Source of the DNA: Cubamyces lactineus
Taxonomy: Eukaryota; Basidiomycota; Agaricomycetes; Polyporales; Polyporaceae
Direction: 5' to 3'
DNA length: 64,000 nt
Assembly (NCBI GenBank): GCA_022376465.1
Contig: JACDTU010000005.1
Coordinates: 484,001 to 548,000, forward strand
Below, piece after piece: positions 30,346 through 44,100 of the stretch. Position 1 is the first letter of the stretch; each line of letters starts with the position of its first letter. The translations under genes and the position numbers were made by a program. The notes beneath the pieces are model-generated. The model saw only the letters and a program-made list of their open reading frames with translations, ran no database searches and was not told where the DNA came from.

Positions 30346-31114
30346 TTAGTCAGGCTGAACGTCTTGTGGAATTGTATGCTGGATAGCCAAGGGAAGACTA
30401 AATGACACGTCAACTATGATGGATGACAATGAGAAGTTGACTGACTGCGCGTCTGTGCCACGTTGATGATCACGTTGCCGCTCAGTCATCCACTTACTCA
30501 GGTCTGACATGTGATTTTTAGATAATCCTTTCCCACCCGGCTTGCACTGATTCTGCCATGTCCAGGTACCAATCCAAATTGGTGCATAACAGCACAACCA
30601 GGCCTTCTGGCATTGGACGCAGCTTGACATCCGTTTGCCTGCGCAGAACCGGCACGTGATCTGCTTGGCTGTGCACCAGTCGCACTTGACCCTGTAATTC
30701 CACGTTAGTTGTACTCCATACTCCAGACAGGCTTACCACGGGACTAGCAACTCCGCGTCATTCTTCTCCTTGTCCTCCGACTCTGGCTCCTTGTCCTCCA
30801 ACTCCAGCTCTTCGTCCTCCGCGGGACGCTTGCTTCCCCGTGCAGAAGACCCCACTTTCACCAAGGCAGCCGGGCGGAACAACACTGCTGCCTTTTGCGT
30901 GGCTTCATACTCCGCGTGCTCCTTCTCCTCCCGCACTCACTCCTCCTCTGCCTTTCACGCCCTGTAAAAACCGTTAGTTTGAACCCCGAACTCAGAACCC
31001 CGACAACTCCGATACTTACGCTTCGGCTGCTGCAGCCTCCTCTGCCGCCACCTTCATCCAGAGCTGTGCAAGGTGCGCCTTCAAGGCCTGGATGTTGTCG
31101 AGGGTGCTGGACAT
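30346..31114 (-). pseudogene. Antisense Zn2Cys6-like gene, truncated upstream copy
   Basis: It starts at the ATG at 31114-31112 (MSSTLDNIQALKAHLAQLWM...AAEEAAAAEA), with a good donor (GTAAGT at 31019) and an acceptor near 30964. Exon 2 contains an in-frame TGA shared with the other copy and an acidic stretch. After a second intron, exon 3 gives KCDWCTAKQITCRF followed by CVQCQKAWLCC, keeping the six cysteines of the cluster. Homology to the complete copy stops near 30345, so the C-terminal exon is gone. The gene points away from the LTR at 31327, meaning it is antisense to the retroelement whose 3' end it occupies. Confidence 0.7.
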
Positions 31115-31326
31115 GGTGTTGGTGGTGGTGGTAGAGGATAGAGAGTGAGGAAGAACTGGCTGAATCTCACCCCCGTCTTACTGTATATACACCTTTCTCC
31201 ATTGATTCTGACCCTACCCCGATTCTTGATCTCCGTTTCCTGGACTTATTGGATTACCTTTTTTGGACAGACTTCAATTTCCTTTCACTATAGGCCCTCA
31301 AGAGTTTGGGCCTAGGGGGGAGGCAC

Positions 31327-32019
31327 TGTTATGCTCCATGCTGTAACCCCAAAGTCCGAGCCCTGAACCCCTATACTCCATCCTTACTTCGCATTATGTA
31401 CTCCTTCCTCCATTCTTTCATACCCCGTACCCCCGACTCTGTTCCCCATACTCTGTTCGCATATGTACTCCACACTTTTGGACTTCCCCTGACCCCATGA
31501 CTTACATGTTTCAGATAACCCCTCATGGCGCTACCTACATGAGGCTTTGCTTACTGAGCTATCTGCGATATCCTATCTCTTGGCAGTTACTTTTGCATAT
31601 TCGCTCTACTCCTTCCTATCCCGTACATCTTTTATTGTTTCTATCGGGTTTCTGACTGAGTATAAATACTGCCCCAGAATGTAGTAGCTACTCAGTGCAG
31701 AAATCTTGTCCTTCCCGTCTTACTGGACTTCTAGTCCGTAGTCCGATACTCAACCCCGACCTCCCAGTCTGACCAACCTTTGTTCCCTTCCTACCTTCCC
31801 CTCCGACCCAACCCCCATTCCCAAGTCCGACCTCCGACCCGTCAAGTCTGTACTCCGTAGTCTGCAAATAGAGGACACCGAGTCGGAACCCGTGCGTTAC
31901 TAATAGTTTCGCGAAAGTCCTCACACAGTGCTAGTCCGACCTCCGGTCGTACTCTGACCCCGAACTCCATCCAATTCCCATCCACCGGAGTTGTACCCCC
32001 GGACGGCATGGTCCTAACA
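31327..32019 (+). repeat. LTR shared by two element-B copies (693 bp)
   Basis: Starts TGTTATGCTCCATGC and ends GGTCCTAACA; TATAAATACTGCCCC at 31661. The left side is a polypurine tract (GCCTAGGGGGGAGGCAC), i.e. the 3' end of an upstream copy; the right side leads into the Gag of element B. It therefore serves as 3' LTR of one copy and 5' LTR of the next. Confidence 0.9.
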
Positions 32020-32329
32020 GTATTTCCGAACTCACCGGGTTTCACTCAATATGTCCACTTGAACTGTAGTCCGCACTCAGACCCAATCTCGTGCCCTAGA
32101 GCAAGAAGACCCCGCTCAGAACTGGAGTGGCTGGACGGCTCGCCGAGGCGACTCAGCGACGCAAGAAGAAGCTACTCTGAGCTGCCATGGACAGTTCGCT
32201 CAAACAATCGTCGAAGTGTCCTCCGATGGGGACAACGAAGGTGACCAGCCTTAGCCTTTGGTCATCTCTATTGCGACTGTCCCACAGGTACCCTGAGAGC
32301 CATCTCTGTGGAATCCGTTCTCCAAGGGT

Positions 32330-33478
32330 CAGCCTACAGGTCCAAGCCGCGGGCCTCCAGGCCCGCCAGGACCTCCGGACAACGACCTGGAAGATCCTCA
32401 AGGACCTGGTGATGACAACATCAGCTCAAGCTTAGACTCCTCCGACTCCGAAGACTGAGTTCAGTCGCAACTAGCGACCGCGATCTCCCTCATCGCGCGT
32501 ACCCTCAAACATACTATCGCTCCAGCTCCGGCCATTACTCAACCTTCGAACAGCGAGCGGCACAATGTCCGCAAGCCGGACCAGTTCAATGGGTCTGATC
32601 CCAACAAACTCCAGTTGGAACTGGTCTTCAAGGCCTGACCCCGAACCTTTGACTCCAATGAGAAGAAGGTAACCTATGCCATCTCCTTCCTCAAGTGCAC
32701 CGCCCTACAGTGGTTCGAGCCCTACCTCCTCGAAGGCGACTTGGACAACCCCCCCATTTTCTTCACATCCTACAACCACTTCCAGGAGGAACTCCGAGTG
32801 AACTTCGGGCCATACAACGCCTCCGGAGCTGCGGAGCACGAGCTGATGAACCTCCAGATGGGCATCAACCAGCGGATAGCTAAGTACATCACTCAGTTCA
32901 CCCGCCTCGCTACTCAAGTCCGCTGGGGTAATGCTCCGCTCTGGTACCGGTTCTACAATGGACTTCCAAAACATCTCAAGGACCGCATCTCCAAGGTCAG
33001 CAAGCCTGAGAACCTGGTGGCCCTCCGCGACCTCGCGCAGTCAATCAACAACCACTACTAGGAGTGCAAGGCCGAGGTCTTGCGCGAGTCCGGGCCTTCC
33101 AAGTCCGGCAGCAAGCCGACCTCCAACTCCAAGTCCTCCAACTCTGGCAACAAGTCCGGAGGTAGCAACTCTGGACAGGCCTCCTTGTCTAACCCGTCCA
33201 AGTCCAGCAACTCCGGTACTTCATCGAAGTCCCCTAAGACTCCAAAGACTCCAGCCAAGACGTACGCCGACAAGCTCGGCAAGGACAGAAAGCTTACCCC
33301 CGAGGAGCGCCAATGCCGTTTCGCCAACAACCTCTGTCTCTTTTGCGGCGGAGCTGGTCACACCGCAAGAGCTTGTCCGAAGAAGACCTCGTCCACGGCT
33401 AAGGGTCGCACTGCTCAAGCTAACCCTGCTCCTGCTGCGCCAGCTCCAGCTGCAGCCCCGAAGGAGACAAAAAATTAG
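32330..33478 (+). pseudogene. Gag of element B
   Basis: One frame encodes a Pro/Gly-rich leader (GPSRGPPGPPGPPDNDLEDP, about 32340), an acidic Ser run, then the Retrotrans_gag capsid domain (RKPDQFNGSDPNKLQLELVF, 32573 on; ALQWFEPYLLEGDLDNPPIF; GPYNASGAAEHELMNLQMG), a Ser/Asn/Lys-rich linker, and a CCHC knuckle CLFCGGAGHTARACP near 33333-33377. In-frame stops lie at 32456-32458, 32636-32638 (TGA, likely CGA before) and 33059-33061 (TAG, likely TGG before). Otherwise the frame is continuous over 380 codons. Confidence 0.85.
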
Positions 33479-33531
33479 TCCACAGTCCTCCAAACTCCGT
33501 ACCCTGTGAGGACCGCATTGACTCCTCCGGT

Positions 33532-36500
33532 ATGGAGATTCTCAGGCTCAACGTGTCCGCTCTTTCCGGCCCCCATGCACTCTTCCTCGACTTGTACTCC
33601 GATCCTATCCCAACTCTGTTCCGCGCCCTTATCGACTCTGGTTCCTCTCATTGTTTCATCGACTCCAAATTCGCGACTACGTATCAACTCCCAACTACTG
33701 CCGTAACCCCGCTCCATCTTCAGCTTTTTGACGGTACTTCTAACCATCTGATTACTTCGTTTACCTCCCTGCCCATACATTTTCCGTCTGGAGAAGTCCT
33801 CAATATAGATTTCTATGTTACTCCGCTCGACAAGTCCGTGTCTGCCGTTCTGGGATACAGCTGGCTCTCCGCCTACAATCCGTTGATTGACTGGAAGAAG
33901 CGCAGCATCCAATTCCGTTCCGCACCCCCGCCACATCCTGTTTCTGACACCATGGTACCCCCGCCAGCTCCGGCTGAGCGTACTCCGTCTACTCCAACTA
34001 CTCCGGCTACTCCGGAACTACCAACTTCTCCTACTCCGACCTCCGTACCCCAGATTTCTCTCGTGAACGCTGCTGCATTCGCTCGAGCTTGCAAACTTCC
34101 GGGGTCCGCGAGTTACACCCTGAGTCTGTCTACTCCGAACTTGGCTACTGCTCGGAGTTCGTCCATCTCCGACTCTCCCCTGGACCTCACCAGAGTTCTG
34201 GCGGAGTACCACGAGTTTGCAGACGTCTTCAGCAAGACCAAGGCCAACATCTTACTGGAGCACTGCCCCTACGTGCTAAAGATCAATTTGGAAGAGGGGG
34301 CTACTCTGCCACTCGGACCTATCTACTCTCTCTCAAAACTCGAGCTCAACACGCTTCAGGAGTACATCGATGAGAACCTCCAATCGGGGTTCATACGTCC
34401 GTCCAACTCCCCCTGCGGAGCTCCCGTCCTCTTCGTCAAGAAGGACGGATCTCTTCGCCTCTGCATGGACTACCGGGGTTTGAATAAGATCACCCGGAAG
34501 GACCGCTACCCCCTTCCTCTTGTCTCGTACTTGCTGAACGCGCCTCGGAAGGCCCGGATCTATACCAAGATCAACCTCTGACACGCCTACAATCTAGTCC
34601 GCCTAGCTCCTGGAGATGAGTGGGAGACCGCATTTCGGACCCGCTATGGGTCCTTCGAATGTCCGTGCCTTGGCACTTCTCCAAGGAATGTCGGATTTTG
34701 TTCAACGCCCTCAAGAAGGCGTTCACGACAGCTCCGGTACTACACCACTGGATGCCCGACTGACCTCTCACCGTCGAGACCGACGCCTCGGACTACGCCA
34801 TTGCCAGCATCCTCTCCCTTACCACCGAGTCTGGTGAACTCCACCCCATCGCTTTCCACTCCCGCACCTTGACCAGCGCGGAGCTGAACTACAACACCCA
34901 TGACAAGGAGCTCCTCGCGATCTTCAAATGTTTCAAGACCTAGCGGCACTACCTTGAAGGTTTGGCAACTCTGATCGATGTTGTCATGGACCACAAGAAC
35001 TTGGTATACTTCGCAACTACGAAGTTACTAACTTGCCGCCAAGCCCAATGGTCAGAGTTCCTCTCGCAGTTCAACCTCGTATGTAGTTCGGTTCTGACCA
35101 GGTAAGCTTGGAGCAAAGCCCGACGCACTGACACGCCGTTGGGACGTCTACCCAAAAGAGGGGGGCAGTGACTACTCCATCGTCAACCCACACAACTACC
35201 AACCGGTTTTCACCCAGGAGCAGCTTGCCATGTCCCTCTGGGCTACCTACCTCCGACCCTCTGTACTCCGAGCTTCCTTCATCCTCGACTCCGAACAACT
35301 CCTCTCGGACATCAAGTCCGCTCAAGCAACCCTGACTCCTGACCCCGAACTATCCGCCGCACTCAAGCTCGCTTCTGAAGGCAACTCCTGATGGTCGCAC
35401 GATGAAGACGGACTACTCCAACTCTCAGGTCGAGTCTATGTCCCAAACTCCGGCGACCTCTGCCTTCACATACTCCGAGCTTGTCACGACCATCCTACCG
35501 CCGGACACTGGGGACAGAACAAGACACAAGCCCTGGTTTTGCGGGACTACGCCTGGCCTGGACTCCGACTCTTCGTCCGGGACTACTGTAAGTCCTGTAC
35601 TACCTGTGTGCAAGCTAAAGTTCCCCGGCATCTCCCCTACGGTACTTTGAAGCAACTCCCGATCCCCGAGCGACCTTGGAACTCCATCTCCATGGACCTC
35701 ATTGAGCAACTCCCGTACTCTGCCGGCTACACCGTGATCCTGGTAGTAGTCGACAGGCTCACTAAGCAAGGTATATTCATTCCTACCCACGACACACTTA
35801 CAGCCTCGGAGCTAGCGAACTTGTTTGTACTCCATGTGTTCTCCAAGCACGGAGTTCCCTCGCACGTTACCTCCGACTGGGGCTTGGAGTTTGTGTCGCA
35901 CTTCTTCCGCTCCTCGGTAAGACCCTCGACATGCACCTTCACTTCACCTCCGGTTACCACCCGGAAGGCGACGGTCAAACCGAGCAGGTCAACCAGACCC
36001 TTGAGCAGTACCTCCAGATCTACTTGAACTACCGGCATATCCCCATTCTTTGCGAACAAAGGCTACAACCCCGCCATCTCCATCTACCCCGAGCGGGACC
36101 TCACCTCCGCTCGAGCCCGCGACTACGCTGTCGACCTCAACAAACTCCACACCCAACTCCGACAGCAGATCTCCGAAGCCCAGGCCCGATACCAAGTACA
36201 GGCAGACAAGCACCATCTACTGGCGCCGGACTTCAAGGTCAGAGATCAGGTCTATGTCCGAGCTCAGCACATCCAGACTACGCATCCCTCCAAAAAGTTG
36301 TCCGAGAAGTTCTTAGGTCCGTTCACTATCATCACGCAGGTCGGAACTCACTCCTTCACCCTCTGACTACCGGACTCTATGCGTGCGGTACACCCTGTCT
36401 TCCATGTCTCACAACTCGAGCCTGCAACTCCGAACACCATCCCTGGCCACATCCAAACTCCGCCACCTCCGATCTTGGTGGACAGAGAACCGGAGTACGG

Positions 36501-36705
36501 GATTTCGGAGATCCTCGACTCCAAGATTGACCACCGGCGTCAGAGTTGCCAACTCCTATACCTAGTCCGATGGGCAGACTACGAAGGTACGGATGAAGAA
36601 ACTTTGTGGATTTTAGCCACGGAGCTCGGACATGCCCAGGAGCTAGTTTTGGACTTCCACTCGGCTTACCCTGACAAGCCCGGACCTCTTGCTAAGTTGT
36701 CTTGA
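33532..36705 (+). pseudogene. Pol of element B with RT catalytic deletion
   Basis: The protease has an intact active site (ALIDSGSSHCFID, about 33630) and YSWLSAYNPLIDW. RT begins well (LPLGPIYSLSKLELNTLQEY, SGFIRPSNSPCGAPVLFVKK followed by DGSLRLCMDYRGLN) and reaches YGSFEC at about 34655, but then jumps to [14 protein letters not shown] at 34700. The missing part, about 130 residues in relatives, includes the YxDD catalytic box and thumb. RNase H ([30 protein letters not shown]) and integrase (HHCC finger HPTAGHWG...CKSCTTC; DDE in SMDLIEQLP, TSDWG, DGQTEQ) are present, with a second deletion near 36035 after LEQYLQIYLNY. The chromodomain EYGISEILDSK...LLYLVRWADYEG ends at 36703-36705. Stops at 34579, 34761, 34941, 35389 and 36364 are mostly TGA or TAG where CGA or TGG is expected. 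Confidence 0.88.
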
Positions 36706-36810
36706 GGATCACACGCGGAGTTCTCACCAACAGATTTTTTCTACTCTACTCCGTACTTGGACTACAAGATTCTACCTACGATGTCCGAGGTCCAAAGTCC
36801 GTACTCCGCC

Positions 36811-38180
36811 CTACTCCGCAGTGTCCATGTCCGTTGGTCCCTCCGGACCCTTCCCCTCCTTTGCTCCCTCGCCCTGCTCCTCCTTCTCCTCCTCACCAGA
36901 CTTGCCCTGCATGGACTTGTCCGCCAACCCTGTCCCATCCTCCTCCTCCTCCCAGTCCGACCCCGCCGCCCGCTCCAGCGCATCCGCGATCACGTCCTCC
37001 TTGTCCTGCGATGTGATCTGCAGGATCTCCTGCAGCATCCGCCCAAACTCCGATGCAAGTTCGGACTTCACTGTGTCGCAGACGGCCTCGCCGATCGCGG
37101 CCTTCAACTCCTTCTGCACGATCTTGGCGATCGCGTCACCAAGACCCTGGACTTCCTCCCACATCATCTCCTCCCACTGCTTCTCCTCGTCGACCAGCAG
37201 GTTGATGACCCACCCTGAGGTGCGCCGGTTGCGCTGCACCGCGACGAGCAGGTGCTCGAGGAGCTCGCGGTCAGAGAGCCGCTCTGGGTCGTCCGACCAC
37301 CGGAGATCAGACTTCCCAACCTCCGGAAGTCCAGAACTCGCGGACACCCTCGGGGCCGTCGATGAGCCTGCGATGCTTGGACCCCAGGCTACTACCATCC
37401 GCGCTGGTGGGTTAACTCCGGGCGGTGCTACGAAAGTCCATCAGACCTCACCTGGCTGCAGAGGCTTCTCCGCCGCCTTCCCTGCTGCCTTGTCCTTCTC
37501 CTTCTCCTTCCCTTTGCCCTTGTCCGCCCGCACCTTCTCTGAACTCTGTACTCCGGTGGGGGCGGGGGGTCTCGAATCCGTCGTCGTCGTCGTCGATGGT
37601 GGCGGACTTGACCTTCTTGCGCTGTGGGCTTGGGGCCTCTTCCTTGCGCGCGATCTGGGCCTGGATGTCCGTGGGCAATCCGCGAGCCCCAATGCACGCG
37701 CGCAACCGGGCCTTCTGGCACTGGACGCAGCTCGATGTCTGCTTGCCCACGCGGAACCGGCACGCGATCTGCTTGGCCGCACACCGGTCGCACTTCACCC
37801 TGTGAACTTCACGTTAGTCTGTACCCCGACCGGACTTACCGCAGGACCAACAATTCCGCACCGTCTTCCTCCTCCTCCTCCTCTGGCTCTTCGTCCTCCG
37901 TGGGACGCTTGCTCCCCCACACGGACGTCCCGGCCTTCGCCAAGGCAGCCTGGTGGAGCAGCGCCACTGCCTTCTGCACGGCCTCGTACTCCATGCACTC
38001 CTTCTCCTCCTGCGCTCACTCTTCCTCCGCTTTTTGCGCCCTGCAAACCACTGTTAGCCCGAACTCCGACAACCCCGGTACTTATGCCTCGGCTGCTGCA
38101 GCCTCCTCTGCCGCCGCCTTCATCCGGAGCTGCGCGAGGTGTGCCTCCAGAGCCTGGATGTTGCCAAGAGTGGAGGACAT
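36811..38180 (-). pseudogene. Antisense spliced gene with Zn2Cys6-like cluster inside element B
   Basis: The gene lies between the chromodomain and the 3' LTR, on the strand opposite to gag-pol. Exon 1 (38180-38086) encodes MSSTLGNIQALEAHLAQLRM and an Ala/Glu helix. Exon 2 (38040-37840) is charged and acidic. Exon 3 (37799-37452) carries CDRCAAKQIACRFRV and CVQCQKARLRAC, spacing C-x2-C-x6-C-x10-C-x2-C-x7-C, close to fungal Zn(II)2Cys6 binuclear clusters, followed by a basic and acidic linker. Exon 4 (about 37406-36811) is a helical C-terminal region (LSDRELLEHLLVAVQRNRRT; QWEEMMWEEVQGLGDAIAKI). Introns 2 and 3 have good splice sites; the donor of intron 1 is ATAAGT where the other copy has GTAAGT. 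Exon 2 has one in-frame TGA (38016-38018) also present in the other copy. It was a genuine gene carried by the family, plausibly a DNA-binding regulator, but this copy is damaged. Confidence 0.7.
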
Positions 38181-38395
38181 AGTGCTGGTAGTGGTGGTGG
38201 AGGACAAAGAGCGAGGAAGAACTGGCTAAGTCTCACCCCCGTCTTATATACACCTTTCTTCATTGATTCTGACCCTGCCCCGATTCTTGATCTCCGTTCC
38301 CTGGACTCATCGGATTACCTTTTTTGGACAGACTTCTATTTTCTTTCACTATAGGCCCTCAAGGGTTCAGGCCTAGGGGCCTAGGGGGGAGGCAC

Positions 38396-39113
38396 TGTCA
38401 CGCCCCGTGCCCCGTGCTGCAACCCCGAAGTCTGAGCCCCGAACCCCGTACTCTGTTCCTACTCCACATTACATACTCCATTCATCCGTACTCCACTCTT
38501 CCGTACCCCATACCCCCAACTCCATTCTCCGTACCCCGCACTTCGTACTCCATACTTCGGACTTCCCCCGACCCCATGACTTACATGTCTCAGATAACCC
38601 CTCATGGCACTACCTACATGAGGCTTTGCTTACTGAGCTATCTGCGATATCTTACCTCTTGGCAGTTACTTTTGCATATTCGCTCTACTCCTTCCTATCC
38701 CGTACATCTCCTATTGTTTCTATCGGGTTTCTGACTTAGTATAAATACTGCCCCAGAATGTAGTAGCTACTCAGTTTGGAAATCTCGTTATCTCGTTAAG
38801 CTTGTGACCTTGTCTCACGGACTTCCAGTCTGTAGTCCGACACTCAACCCCGACCCCCCAGTCCGACCAACCTTTGTTCCCTTCCTACCCTTCCCTCCGA
38901 CCCAACCCCGTTCCCAAGTCCGACCTCCGACCTGTCAAGTCCATACTCCATTAGTCTGCAAATAGAGGACACCGAGTCGGAACCCGTGCGTTACTAATAG
39001 TTTCGCAAAAGTCCTCACACAGTGACAGTCTGACCTCCAGTTGTACTCTGACCCCGAACTCCGTCCAAGTCCCGACCACCGGAGTTGTACCCCCAGATGG
39101 CACAGTCCTAACA
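38396..39113 (+). repeat. 3' LTR of element B (718 bp)
   Basis: Starts TGTCACGCCCCGTG after the polypurine tract CCTAGGGGGGAGGCAC and ends AGTCCTAACA. It carries the same TATAAATACTGCCCCAGAAT box at about 38740. Confidence 0.9.
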
Positions 39114-39735: not shown

Positions 39736-39890
39736 AGACCAAAGTCAACCCTAGCATTGGGTTTACAGACTTTTTGAGCCACACATGACCTGTCATTGGT
39801 CCCTTATGTGGAGCTCCACAGGCTTGAGTACTGTGTTCAGCATTGGTATGTTGACATTGCAGCACTGGCAAGTGCTTGAATAAGTTGATA

Positions 39891-40292
39891 CAGTGACTTC
39901 CAAAACTATTTCCAGAAATCATAGATTTGCATCATTTTTCAAATATCTCTGCAACAGCTCAATGAAATATTATGATTCAAATTATGTTCAGTAGCTTGCC
40001 AAGCAGGATTGCAGCTGTGTTGAAGGCCAAGGGAGGTGATACCAAGTACTAGATCATGTATTCCAGTGTGCCAAACTGCCTGTTACAAAACTGTTTCCAG
40101 GAGTTGAGGTCAAAGAATGCCACATTGAGCAGGCAGTTCTGGCTCAAATATTATGAAACATATGACATTAGAAAGCTGTGAAGTATAGCTACTGAACATA
40201 ATTTGAATCATAATATTTTATTGAGCCATTGCAGAGATATTTGAAAACTGATGCAAATCTATGATTTCTGGAAACAGTTTCGGAAGTCACCG
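39891..40292. mobile_element. Tc1/mariner-type MITE (402 bp)
   Basis: Near-perfect terminal inverted repeats of about 105 bp: left arm CAGTGACTTCCAAAACTATT..., right arm (reverse complement) CGGTGACTTCCGAAACTGTT.... Each end is flanked by TA (39889-39890 and 40293-40294), the target used by Tc1/mariner transposases. The 190-bp centre encodes nothing. Such elements move only with a transposase supplied elsewhere. Confidence 0.8.
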
Positions 40293-40295
40293 TAT

Positions 40296-41101: not shown

Positions 41102-44100
41102 CTACACTGATTGCAGTACAACTCTTGCAACAAGGCTGCTACCTATTCGCTGAACCTCAGCGCATACCGCATCCCGGTTCAAAGTGACAAGGCCCTTCTC
41201 CTTCTCTTTTGCCTTGGAGGCATCCTACAGCGTGAACATGTATAGTGAGAAACTATATGAATCAATCACGTAGATGCCACTTACCTTGCGCACCGGCGTG
41301 CTCGAGAAACCCCCGAGCACCCTAAACGGTCTAGCATCCCGCAAGTTCGGTTGCCATACAGCACCAATGCGATCTCCGCCAAGGGGGTCGTAAAAGAGCA
41401 GAACGGTATCGGCATACACGTACTGTAATCTCGTCAGAATACTACCACGAGGCACAGTCAAGGGCAGCTACTTACCGCGAGATCGTCGTACAGCAAGGCG
41501 ACCGGGTCGAAACCAGGCATAACGGGCGTTGGTGTCTCCTTCGAGACTGCATTCGCGTACTTGGCCTTCGACGCCCATACGGAAGAGCTAGCGTCGATAT
41601 TTTGGTGGTAGCGCGTCAAAAGCGCCGGATTAAGCTCGATCACAAAGTCATAGTGGTCAACGGGATGATGGAAGATGCGCTGTGCAAAGGAGCCGTCAGA
41701 GCTGTATATGCGCAATAGCGCCACGGCCACTGACCTTGACACTAGATACTCCAGTTTCTATGCCCTTGAGACTCTCCCACGTCGCCTTGGCAAGCGCAGT
41801 AACACGTCTCGCAACGACGGCATTTGGACCCGAAGACGTCCACATGTGGCCTTGAGGATCGAACGGTGTCGCTATTGACCATGCGACATCTGGAGAGGCG
41901 CTCGTTGGCGGCGCGGATGGGACCGCACTGGCGCTTTGGTCCGCATTGTCCAGCGGGACGACGAGGCCAGTGGTCCAATCCCAGTCCTTCAAGAACTCCA
42001 CGACTTGAGCAAATCCCCGCTCCTTCGACCCCGGTGCGGATGACGATGGGACAGGAGAGGCTTCGCTGGACCGAGGGGCACCCGTGCGAAGGAAGATATA
42101 GGCACAAAGTAGCTCCACGGCCTCTTCAGAGACGTGCCCTCGAAGCAGCCAATGTGATGCGAACCACCGTTTCGTCAACCTGACGGTCCCAGCGAATGCT
42201 GAGAACTTGTGGCAGAGCGCCGCAATTGCCCGGTGATGCCGAGGGCCATGGATAAACCTCCGCGTGTAGACCTCTCGAGCCTGCAGAGCAAGCTGGCGTT
42301 CGCGCGCGTCTTCACCGCTCGTGTTGCGACGAAGGGCCTTGGGAAGGTGGGGTTGATCGTTGATGATACGGTCCAAGAGCGTCGCCTCACGATCGTGCCA
42401 GATGCGTGCGCGGAACGACCAGCCGTCAGCGGTGATGATGTCAAGCGCAGCTTCGTCTTGTATCTCCGTCCGCTCAGGTCGCTCGCCAAGCACGACGTTG
42501 GCTTGGAGTCCTTTCACAGCACTCATGAGGATGGTGGCGAGGCGCTCGAAGAAGGCGAGCTTGATCTTCTGGATGGCCCGGAGGTCGTCTGGCCATCGTG
42601 CAGATTTCTCGAACTCGATGATGACTTCGATAGCGGGCAGATACGAGGCGGGCTTGGGCAACATAGAACGAGCGCCGACAGGCACTGCGAGAGGGACGAA
42701 GACATCGGTGTACCGCAGGACGGGAGAGACGGGGCTGACATTGAGGACAGCAAGAGGAAATTGATCATCGAGCGCCTTGATATGCTTGACGAGGGCATCG
42801 AAAGCGGCGAGGGCGGTTTTGAAGCCGATAGCGGCACCGGAAGATTGATACACGGAGGTTATAGACTCGGGGAGCCTGACAACGTTGTCGAACTGCGTCT
42901 GCCATGTCTGCACGGCGTCTCCATCAATACCAAGATGTCTCCTGAGCAAATGTCGAACGATCATTGACGGAATATGTGCGCGCTCGTCCGAATTCTTCAC
43001 GTCCCAGACTACACTTTCGACGATCGAACCATCCTTGAATCGTCGAAGTTCGGCCTTCTCTCCCCAGAACTCCCGGAATTGCTTCGTCCTCTCGCTTTCA
43101 GTCTCCTCCGCCGGAGGACCATGGTCAACCAATCGGAAGGCATGCTCGCAATCAAGGACGATCCCAATATGGACCACGGACGGATTCATGGGATTAGCGT
43201 TCGATGTCGGTCTAACGTCCGACGTCGGATGTAAAATAGCGATCGCTTTCGCCCGGTTTCCAAGACCGCGGCGCAAAGTGGAGATGAGCGTAGCCATCAC
43301 TGCATTGTACACAGAGCCGTAGTCAGCCACAAGGTGGGCGGACGCTTTACGCATCTCTGCAGATGACACGTCTACCCTACAGGAATAGATGAATGAAACC
43401 GTAAATTGATGATTGGAAATGTGCTCACCGTGCGACGACGTCGAACCGCCCCAAAACGTCTCGGCATTCCTTCAAAAACACAGTGTGAAACGGATCTTCC
43501 GAGATGGTGGAGTGGTCCAATGCTTCTAGCGTCGCTTGTGCGTCGTGTCGGAGCTATAGATACGTCAGCCGTATGGTCGATGACGCAGTCTTAACAGACT
43601 CACGAGGTCGAGGGACGATAGGGGAATATCGGCCAGTAGATTAACCGAAGAGGTCGAGTCCACGAATACGGCTTCATGACTCGAATAAGCCCCGGGAGGG
43701 AACTGGCCATCGGATTATATTGTTAGCAGCGCTAACTAATGTGGGTGCATGGGCGCGAACGTACCCGATGCCCATCTTTTGCCTTCACAAACACGGCTTC
43801 CGCGTCGAAGTTATGCCGTGCTGTGTCGTCTTTCAGTACAATGAAAATTGTGTCTAGTGGACTACACACCTAGGAAATCCAGAGCAGCCTTGAACAACTG
43901 ATACGAACTAAGTCCCTTGCCAAGAGGCTTGCGCTTCGATCCAGACTTGCCGAGACTGACAGGTGGCGGTTCCTCGCCGTGAATCACCAGGTCCAGGACA
44001 GAAGCCCACCACATCCCCTTGCCCTCGAAGCCGCGTACGCACATACGGCTACCGAGACCATAGCCTCTCTGATTGGCCCACACCCGTAAAAGGGCTAACG

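Follow-up and report, generated by a model that had tools for sequence, protein, structure and literature searches.

Antisense genes are already known in gypsy elements of plants and, as brtn, of Botrytis. The plant genes (aORF-3R) include gene23 of Grande, RIRE2, and TRP28 of Retand; in the available portions of the sources, gene23 is described as driven by a promoter of its own, with a nuclear product, DNA binding is predicted for TRP28, and the function of such genes is treated as open (PMC7264820, PMC11963269). The gene brtn is reported from Boty-like gypsy elements of the ascomycete Botrytis cinerea (Zhao et al. 2011, as given in the available part of PMC7264820). For Arabidopsis, the portions available of two papers describe VANC21 as binding YAGTATTAY, a motif dense only in VANDAL21 (PMC5735166), and as stripping silencing marks (PMC10398659). 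The locus compared here with these systems lies in a window of 64,000 nucleotides (the whole stretch of DNA that was analysed) from contig JACDTU010000005.1 of Cubamyces lactineus. An intron-bearing gene is located there on the minus strand at 36811-38180, between the end of the pol chromodomain and the 3′ long terminal repeat (LTR) of element B, a degenerate Ty3/gypsy chromovirus. The protein specified by this antisense gene is under purifying selection and probably carries a Zn2Cys6-like DNA-binding-type cluster, and the elements that bear the gene are enriched in the motif CGGRSTW.

Relative to the plant aORF-3R genes, as far as the available text describes them, the Cubamyces gene differs in its two introns, its Zn2Cys6-like cluster, its fungal chromovirus host, and the element-wide motif. 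It shares with brtn the setting of an additional antisense gene in a fungal gypsy element, a likeness drawn, from what is available of that source, by presence of the gene and not by sequence or domains. The initial annotation of the locus had considered an intron-bearing antisense gene with a regulator-like cluster to be nonstandard for a fungal element. For the spliced, Zn2Cys6-like form this would stand: such a gene with matching DNA saturation in a basidiomycete chromovirus was not found in the open-access literature, a weak negative given the partial coverage. The claim becomes narrower with brtn already in print.

The antisense gene was searched for across the genome of C. lactineus. The DNA search returned 44 rows, one being the window copy and the other 43 matching it at 80-85%, and the protein search returned 70 rows, which reduce to 60 when 10 second pieces are merged; the gene is thus present, whole or as a fragment, in at least 60 places. 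These counts and those for pol given below are lower bounds (best candidates only). Because copies matching the gene of the window recur elsewhere in the genome, the gene is not a product of chance. It is real, although in the window it survives only as a pseudogene. The 32 full-length copies discussed below are the window copy and 31 of the 39 loci L009-L047, with L012 and L041-L047 lacking an end-to-end match. An intact reading frame of 426-440 amino acids is present in 22 of the 32, with three exons and two canonical introns. The first splice donor is GTAAGT in 31 copies and the second is GTAAGT in 31 and GTAAGC in one; the acceptors end in AG with one exception in L040, and a branch-like CTAAC or CTRAY occurs in both introns of all 32. 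The features of the window are as follows; L016 is the reference element.

31326-39113, plus strand: element B, degenerate Ty3/gypsy chromovirus that carries the gene
31326-32019, plus strand: 5′ LTR of element B, 85.6% to the L016 LTR
33532-34581, plus strand: start of pol, open reading frame (ORF) with a retroviral aspartyl protease (PF08284)
36016-36702, plus strand: C-terminal integrase/chromodomain stretch of pol with two TGA stops (C39:520016-520702)
36811-37799, minus strand: exon 3, with the cysteine cluster, a basic stretch resembling a nuclear localization signal (NLS), a conserved helical C-terminal region, and an acidic tail
37404-37451, minus strand: 48-nucleotide, in-frame third intron of the initial annotation, coding in 31 of 32 full-length copies
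37694-37792, minus strand: Zn2Cys6-like cluster C-x2-C-x6-C-x10-C-x2-C-x7-C
37840-38040, minus strand: exon 2, charged N-terminal region with an acidic stretch
38086-38180, minus strand: exon 1; the donor that follows is lost in the window and kept in the other 31 full-length copies
38243-38250, minus strand: TATA box TATATAAG, upstream of the gene in 21 of 21 aligned copies
38409-39113, plus strand: 3′ LTR of element B, enriched in gene-strand CGG pairs spaced by 7 bp (5 vs 0.26 expected)
30602-31114, minus strand: truncated remnant of a second gene (copy A), in which homology stops after the fifth cysteine

The spliced minus-strand gene after the chromodomain that the initial annotation had proposed was thus borne out by the sequence and the genomic copies, with three exons in place of four. 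The proposed third intron (37451-37404) was rejected: it encodes the conserved peptide GEVRWTFVA(P/L)PG(I/V)NPP in 31 of 32 copies, and a stop is found there only in the window copy. The gene had also been taken as intact in the window, where it has lost the first donor, carries a one-base frameshift near 37569, and is interrupted by a stop at 37443-37441. C-to-T or G-to-A changes affect 67 of 366 CpG bases of this copy and 28 of the 714 C and G bases outside CpG, as would be expected for an old, methylated copy. The second copy, placed at 30346-31114, is a homologous remnant; homology covers only about 30592/30602-31114, exon 2 also has a stop, and the sixth cysteine, said to be kept, lies outside the homology. 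Each of the 32 full-length copies nevertheless retains all six. Named relatives of the protein come only from Trametes, Cubamyces, and Pilatotrama (33-62% identity). Among these, P0001 and P0002 differ from P0003, P0004, and P0005 in keeping a GEVRWT(F/Y)VAPPG stretch as annotated, and entries that share the record name Cubamyces sp. BRFM 1775 are themselves divided; the difference may reflect either an annotation error or optional splicing.

Selection was assessed with seven of the 22 intact copies, picked to represent subfamilies; 14 of the 15 copies of a recent burst were omitted, as was L010 (99% to L009). The pooled ratio of nonsynonymous to synonymous polymorphism (pN/pS) is 0.125, falling to 0.028 in the cysteine region, and pairwise dN/dS values are 0.06-0.44. 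The ratios for pol of the gene-bearing clade are comparable: 20 of the 21 pairs fall at 0.06-0.26, and the remaining pair is at 0.81. The burst comprises 15 near-identical intact copies, among which 28 changes give a pN/pS of 0.59, the kind of value that fresh copies should show. The selection suspected at the outset is therefore upheld both by the 22 intact copies and by a pooled ratio far from 1. An open sense-strand frame of 461 amino acids (L016:2006-3391, minus strand), long in most copies, faces the antisense gene; it can be explained as a shadow of wobble positions facing wobble positions. The change rate is 0.101 at sites silent in both frames, 0.098 at sites silent only in the antisense gene, 0.026 at those silent only in the sense ORF, and 0.014 at those silent in neither; therefore the antisense gene, and not the sense ORF, is under selection.

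That no protein function exists, with antisense RNA alone being of importance or the open frames being a by-product, is very hard to credit. Two opposing long open frames do exist, as such an account would have it, but of the two only the spliced antisense frame is under purifying selection, and relatives of the protein persist at the identities given above. The gap runs relative to L016 also speak against it: they are in frame in 22 of 22 cases in exons of intact copies (partly by choice, since these copies were picked as open), in 24 of 41 in exons of broken copies, and in 1 of 21 in introns.

Fungal Zn2Cys6 domains (PF00172) follow the spacing C-x2-C-x6-C-x5-12-C-x2-C-x6-8-C. The cysteine pattern named in the initial annotation is present and conforms to this rule, in support of a DNA-binding-type cluster and a regulator-like make-up; the L016 protein has no cysteines beyond the six of the cluster. 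The PF00172 profile gave no match for the L016 protein, and the best score, 20.0 for the fragment P0006, is below the Pfam gathering cutoff of 21. Zn2Cys6 domains rank first, with weak scores, for predicted models of the protein, and the top structural matches include Gal4, Leu3, Ppr1, Put3, Pho7, and 1cld, which we take to be Lac9. The number and spacing of the cysteines, and the candidate CGG-type sites described below, are shared with Gal4-type factors; in contrast to these, the antisense protein scores below the Pfam cutoff, is encoded by an element, shows low similarity, and has a long helix at its C-terminus, distant from the cluster. The product is a charged, probably nuclear protein with a Zn2Cys6-like DNA-binding-type cluster and a long C-terminal helix.

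The carrier of the gene is a Ty3/gypsy chromovirus. The domains PF08284, PF00078, PF17917, PF17921, PF00665, and PF00385 of pol, together with PF03732 of gag, are found in order between the LTRs of L016, and a polypurine tract, GGGGGGAGG, adjoins the LTR. Target-site duplications of 5 bp were read by eye in 7 of 12 elements; none was seen by eye in L016, L010, L024, or the window element, and L028 is cut off. The pol search gave 131 rows, of which four were merged, leaving 53 near-clade and 74 far matches. Among the matches listed, the antisense gene lies downstream of pol in 47 of the 53 and in none of the 74 from other chromovirus families. The gap between the matched pol and gene stretches is 316-334 bp in 42 of the 47, and an LTR adjoins the gene in 37 of 39 loci (L009-L047). 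Nine of the 12 LTR pairs examined are at least 99.7% identical; the gene-bearing family was therefore recently active. L016 itself has unlike LTRs (95.5%) and no visible duplication and is not a clean insertion. The most conserved stretch is the part of the gene-LTR spacer that lies between the polypurine tract and the TATA box, with a pairwise divergence of 0.018 vs 0.061 for exon 3. In L013 the gene resembles L011 and L014 and the pol resembles L016; this mismatch, judged from similarities without a tree, suggests that the antisense 3′ cassette may have been exchanged between subfamilies.

Paired CGG triplets are the typical binding sites of Zn2Cys6 proteins (PMC5559640, available in part). 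In the L016 LTR, the gene strand has 10 CGG pairs at a distance of 7 bp vs 0.82 expected (z score 10.3). For pol, controls were shuffles that preserve the protein and the codon usage. A ranking of all hexamers in L016 pol placed ACTCCG/CGGAGT at the top (35 vs 8.9, z 10.6), and CGGRSTW, defined after the L016 hexamers had been viewed, has 60 sites vs 13.0 ± 3.1 in the shuffles (z 15.3, 0 of 500). The gene-bearing pol pieces of L012 and of a divergent copy on C4 are likewise enriched (z 6.7 and 6.9). In four of four chromovirus pols that lack the gene, CGGRSTW is not enriched (z -0.9 to 0.5), nor is the hexamer (z -0.1 to 1.3). Enrichment of CGGRSTW extends to gag (z 4.4), where the hexamer alone is not enriched (z 1.6), and to the coding sequence of the antisense gene (z 7.3). 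The density is 18.48/kb within eight gene-bearing elements, seven of them near-identical, vs 0.46/kb in their flanks; gene-lacking chromovirus loci have 11 sites in 13.1 kb (0.84/kb). Element B has 73 sites (9.4/kb), and the remaining 56.2 kb of the window contain 49 (0.87/kb); CGGAGT is rarer in the two LTRs of the window (1.4/kb) than in those of L016 (13/kb). The 5′ leader is poor in CGGRSTW (3.1/kb), and none occurs in the 206-bp spacer between gene and LTR. The doubled motif has 67 matches in the genome, of which 62 are within 9 kb of a gene copy and many within the gene itself. Doubled CGGAGT away from gene copies was found at G000:C23:2018800, C37:712, C1:1166160, and C13:452325. Two divergent gene-bearing elements lie inverted, with mirrored coordinates, at G000:C4:812707-823566, and one of their pols (L054) has the motif.

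The saturation could be a functionless mutational or slippage product of the lineage, the gene having an unrelated accessory role; we regard this as improbable. Part of the LTR does resemble a degenerate 7-bp tandem repeat, and conservation of the hexamer in pol (119 of 125) is barely above that of matched hexamers (0.89-0.92), little divergence being available. The sites in pol are nevertheless isolated and distributed over all three codon frames without cost to the protein, at a z of 15 relative to synonymous shuffles. The reversed motif gives a z of -0.04; permuted motifs have a mean z of 0.37 (standard deviation 1.78), and the four highest (6.4-8.8) all retain CGG with similar letters after it. 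Alternatively, the motif might be bound by a host factor or act in RNA or gag packaging, with the protein serving elsewhere, as in nuclear import of the preintegration complex or chromodomain targeting. Three quarters of the L016 sites (108 of 144) share one orientation, and the protein combines a high charge with a basic, NLS-like stretch, both in keeping with this account. Both orientations are enriched in pol, however (z 11.0 and 9.2), so double-stranded DNA is favored, and the motif is not enriched in the four chromovirus pols without the gene; a role of this kind is rather unlikely.

A conserved gene, its restriction to one clade, a DNA-binding-type cluster, and saturation with a CGG-type motif together fit element-encoded self-recognition. 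The accessory gene, which has two introns and a TATA box of its own, would encode a Zn2Cys6-like protein that binds CGGRSTW sites in its own element; many molecules would coat the element DNA, and the coating would activate the element or shield it from silencing, as the VANC proteins of plant VANDAL transposons do. We give self-binding with activation or anti-silencing about an even chance. VANDALs are DNA transposons, and the likeness is an analogy of mechanism only. It consists of an element-encoded protein, a dense and element-specific short motif, and self-recognition, the last inferred here; as far as the available VANC text goes, VANC proteins target mainly noncoding tandem repeats, whereas coding sequence is saturated too in the gene-bearing chromoviruses. 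The more specific proposal of a VANC-like LTR retrotransposon, whose product would coat CGGRSTW sites written synonymously into coding sequence and so counter host silencing, is put forward tentatively. The same evidence would serve a protein that binds its own element and represses it, with CGGRSTW sites as operators in a self-limiting control of copy number, and the antisense orientation would also give RNA complementary to the element transcript. The gene is kept intact, however, in a young, expanded group (the 15 near-identical copies and the near-identical LTR pairs above), and saturation of coding sequence exceeds what operators need, which leaves repression rather unlikely.

With a candidate DNA-binding domain and a candidate target motif paired in one chromovirus family, the function of an antisense gene becomes testable. 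If the motif is the target, the coding sequence of a retrotransposon would have been shaped at synonymous sites into a dense array for its own regulator, and sequence-specific anti-silencing, as seen in plant DNA transposons, would extend to LTR elements of fungi.

The host gene adjoining the element (41696-43369, minus strand) has the Nrap domains PF17404, PF17405, and PF17406. Between element and host gene, an inverted repeat is formed by 39888-39996 and 40187-40295, with arms of 109 nucleotides that are 94% complementary and 190 nucleotides apart.
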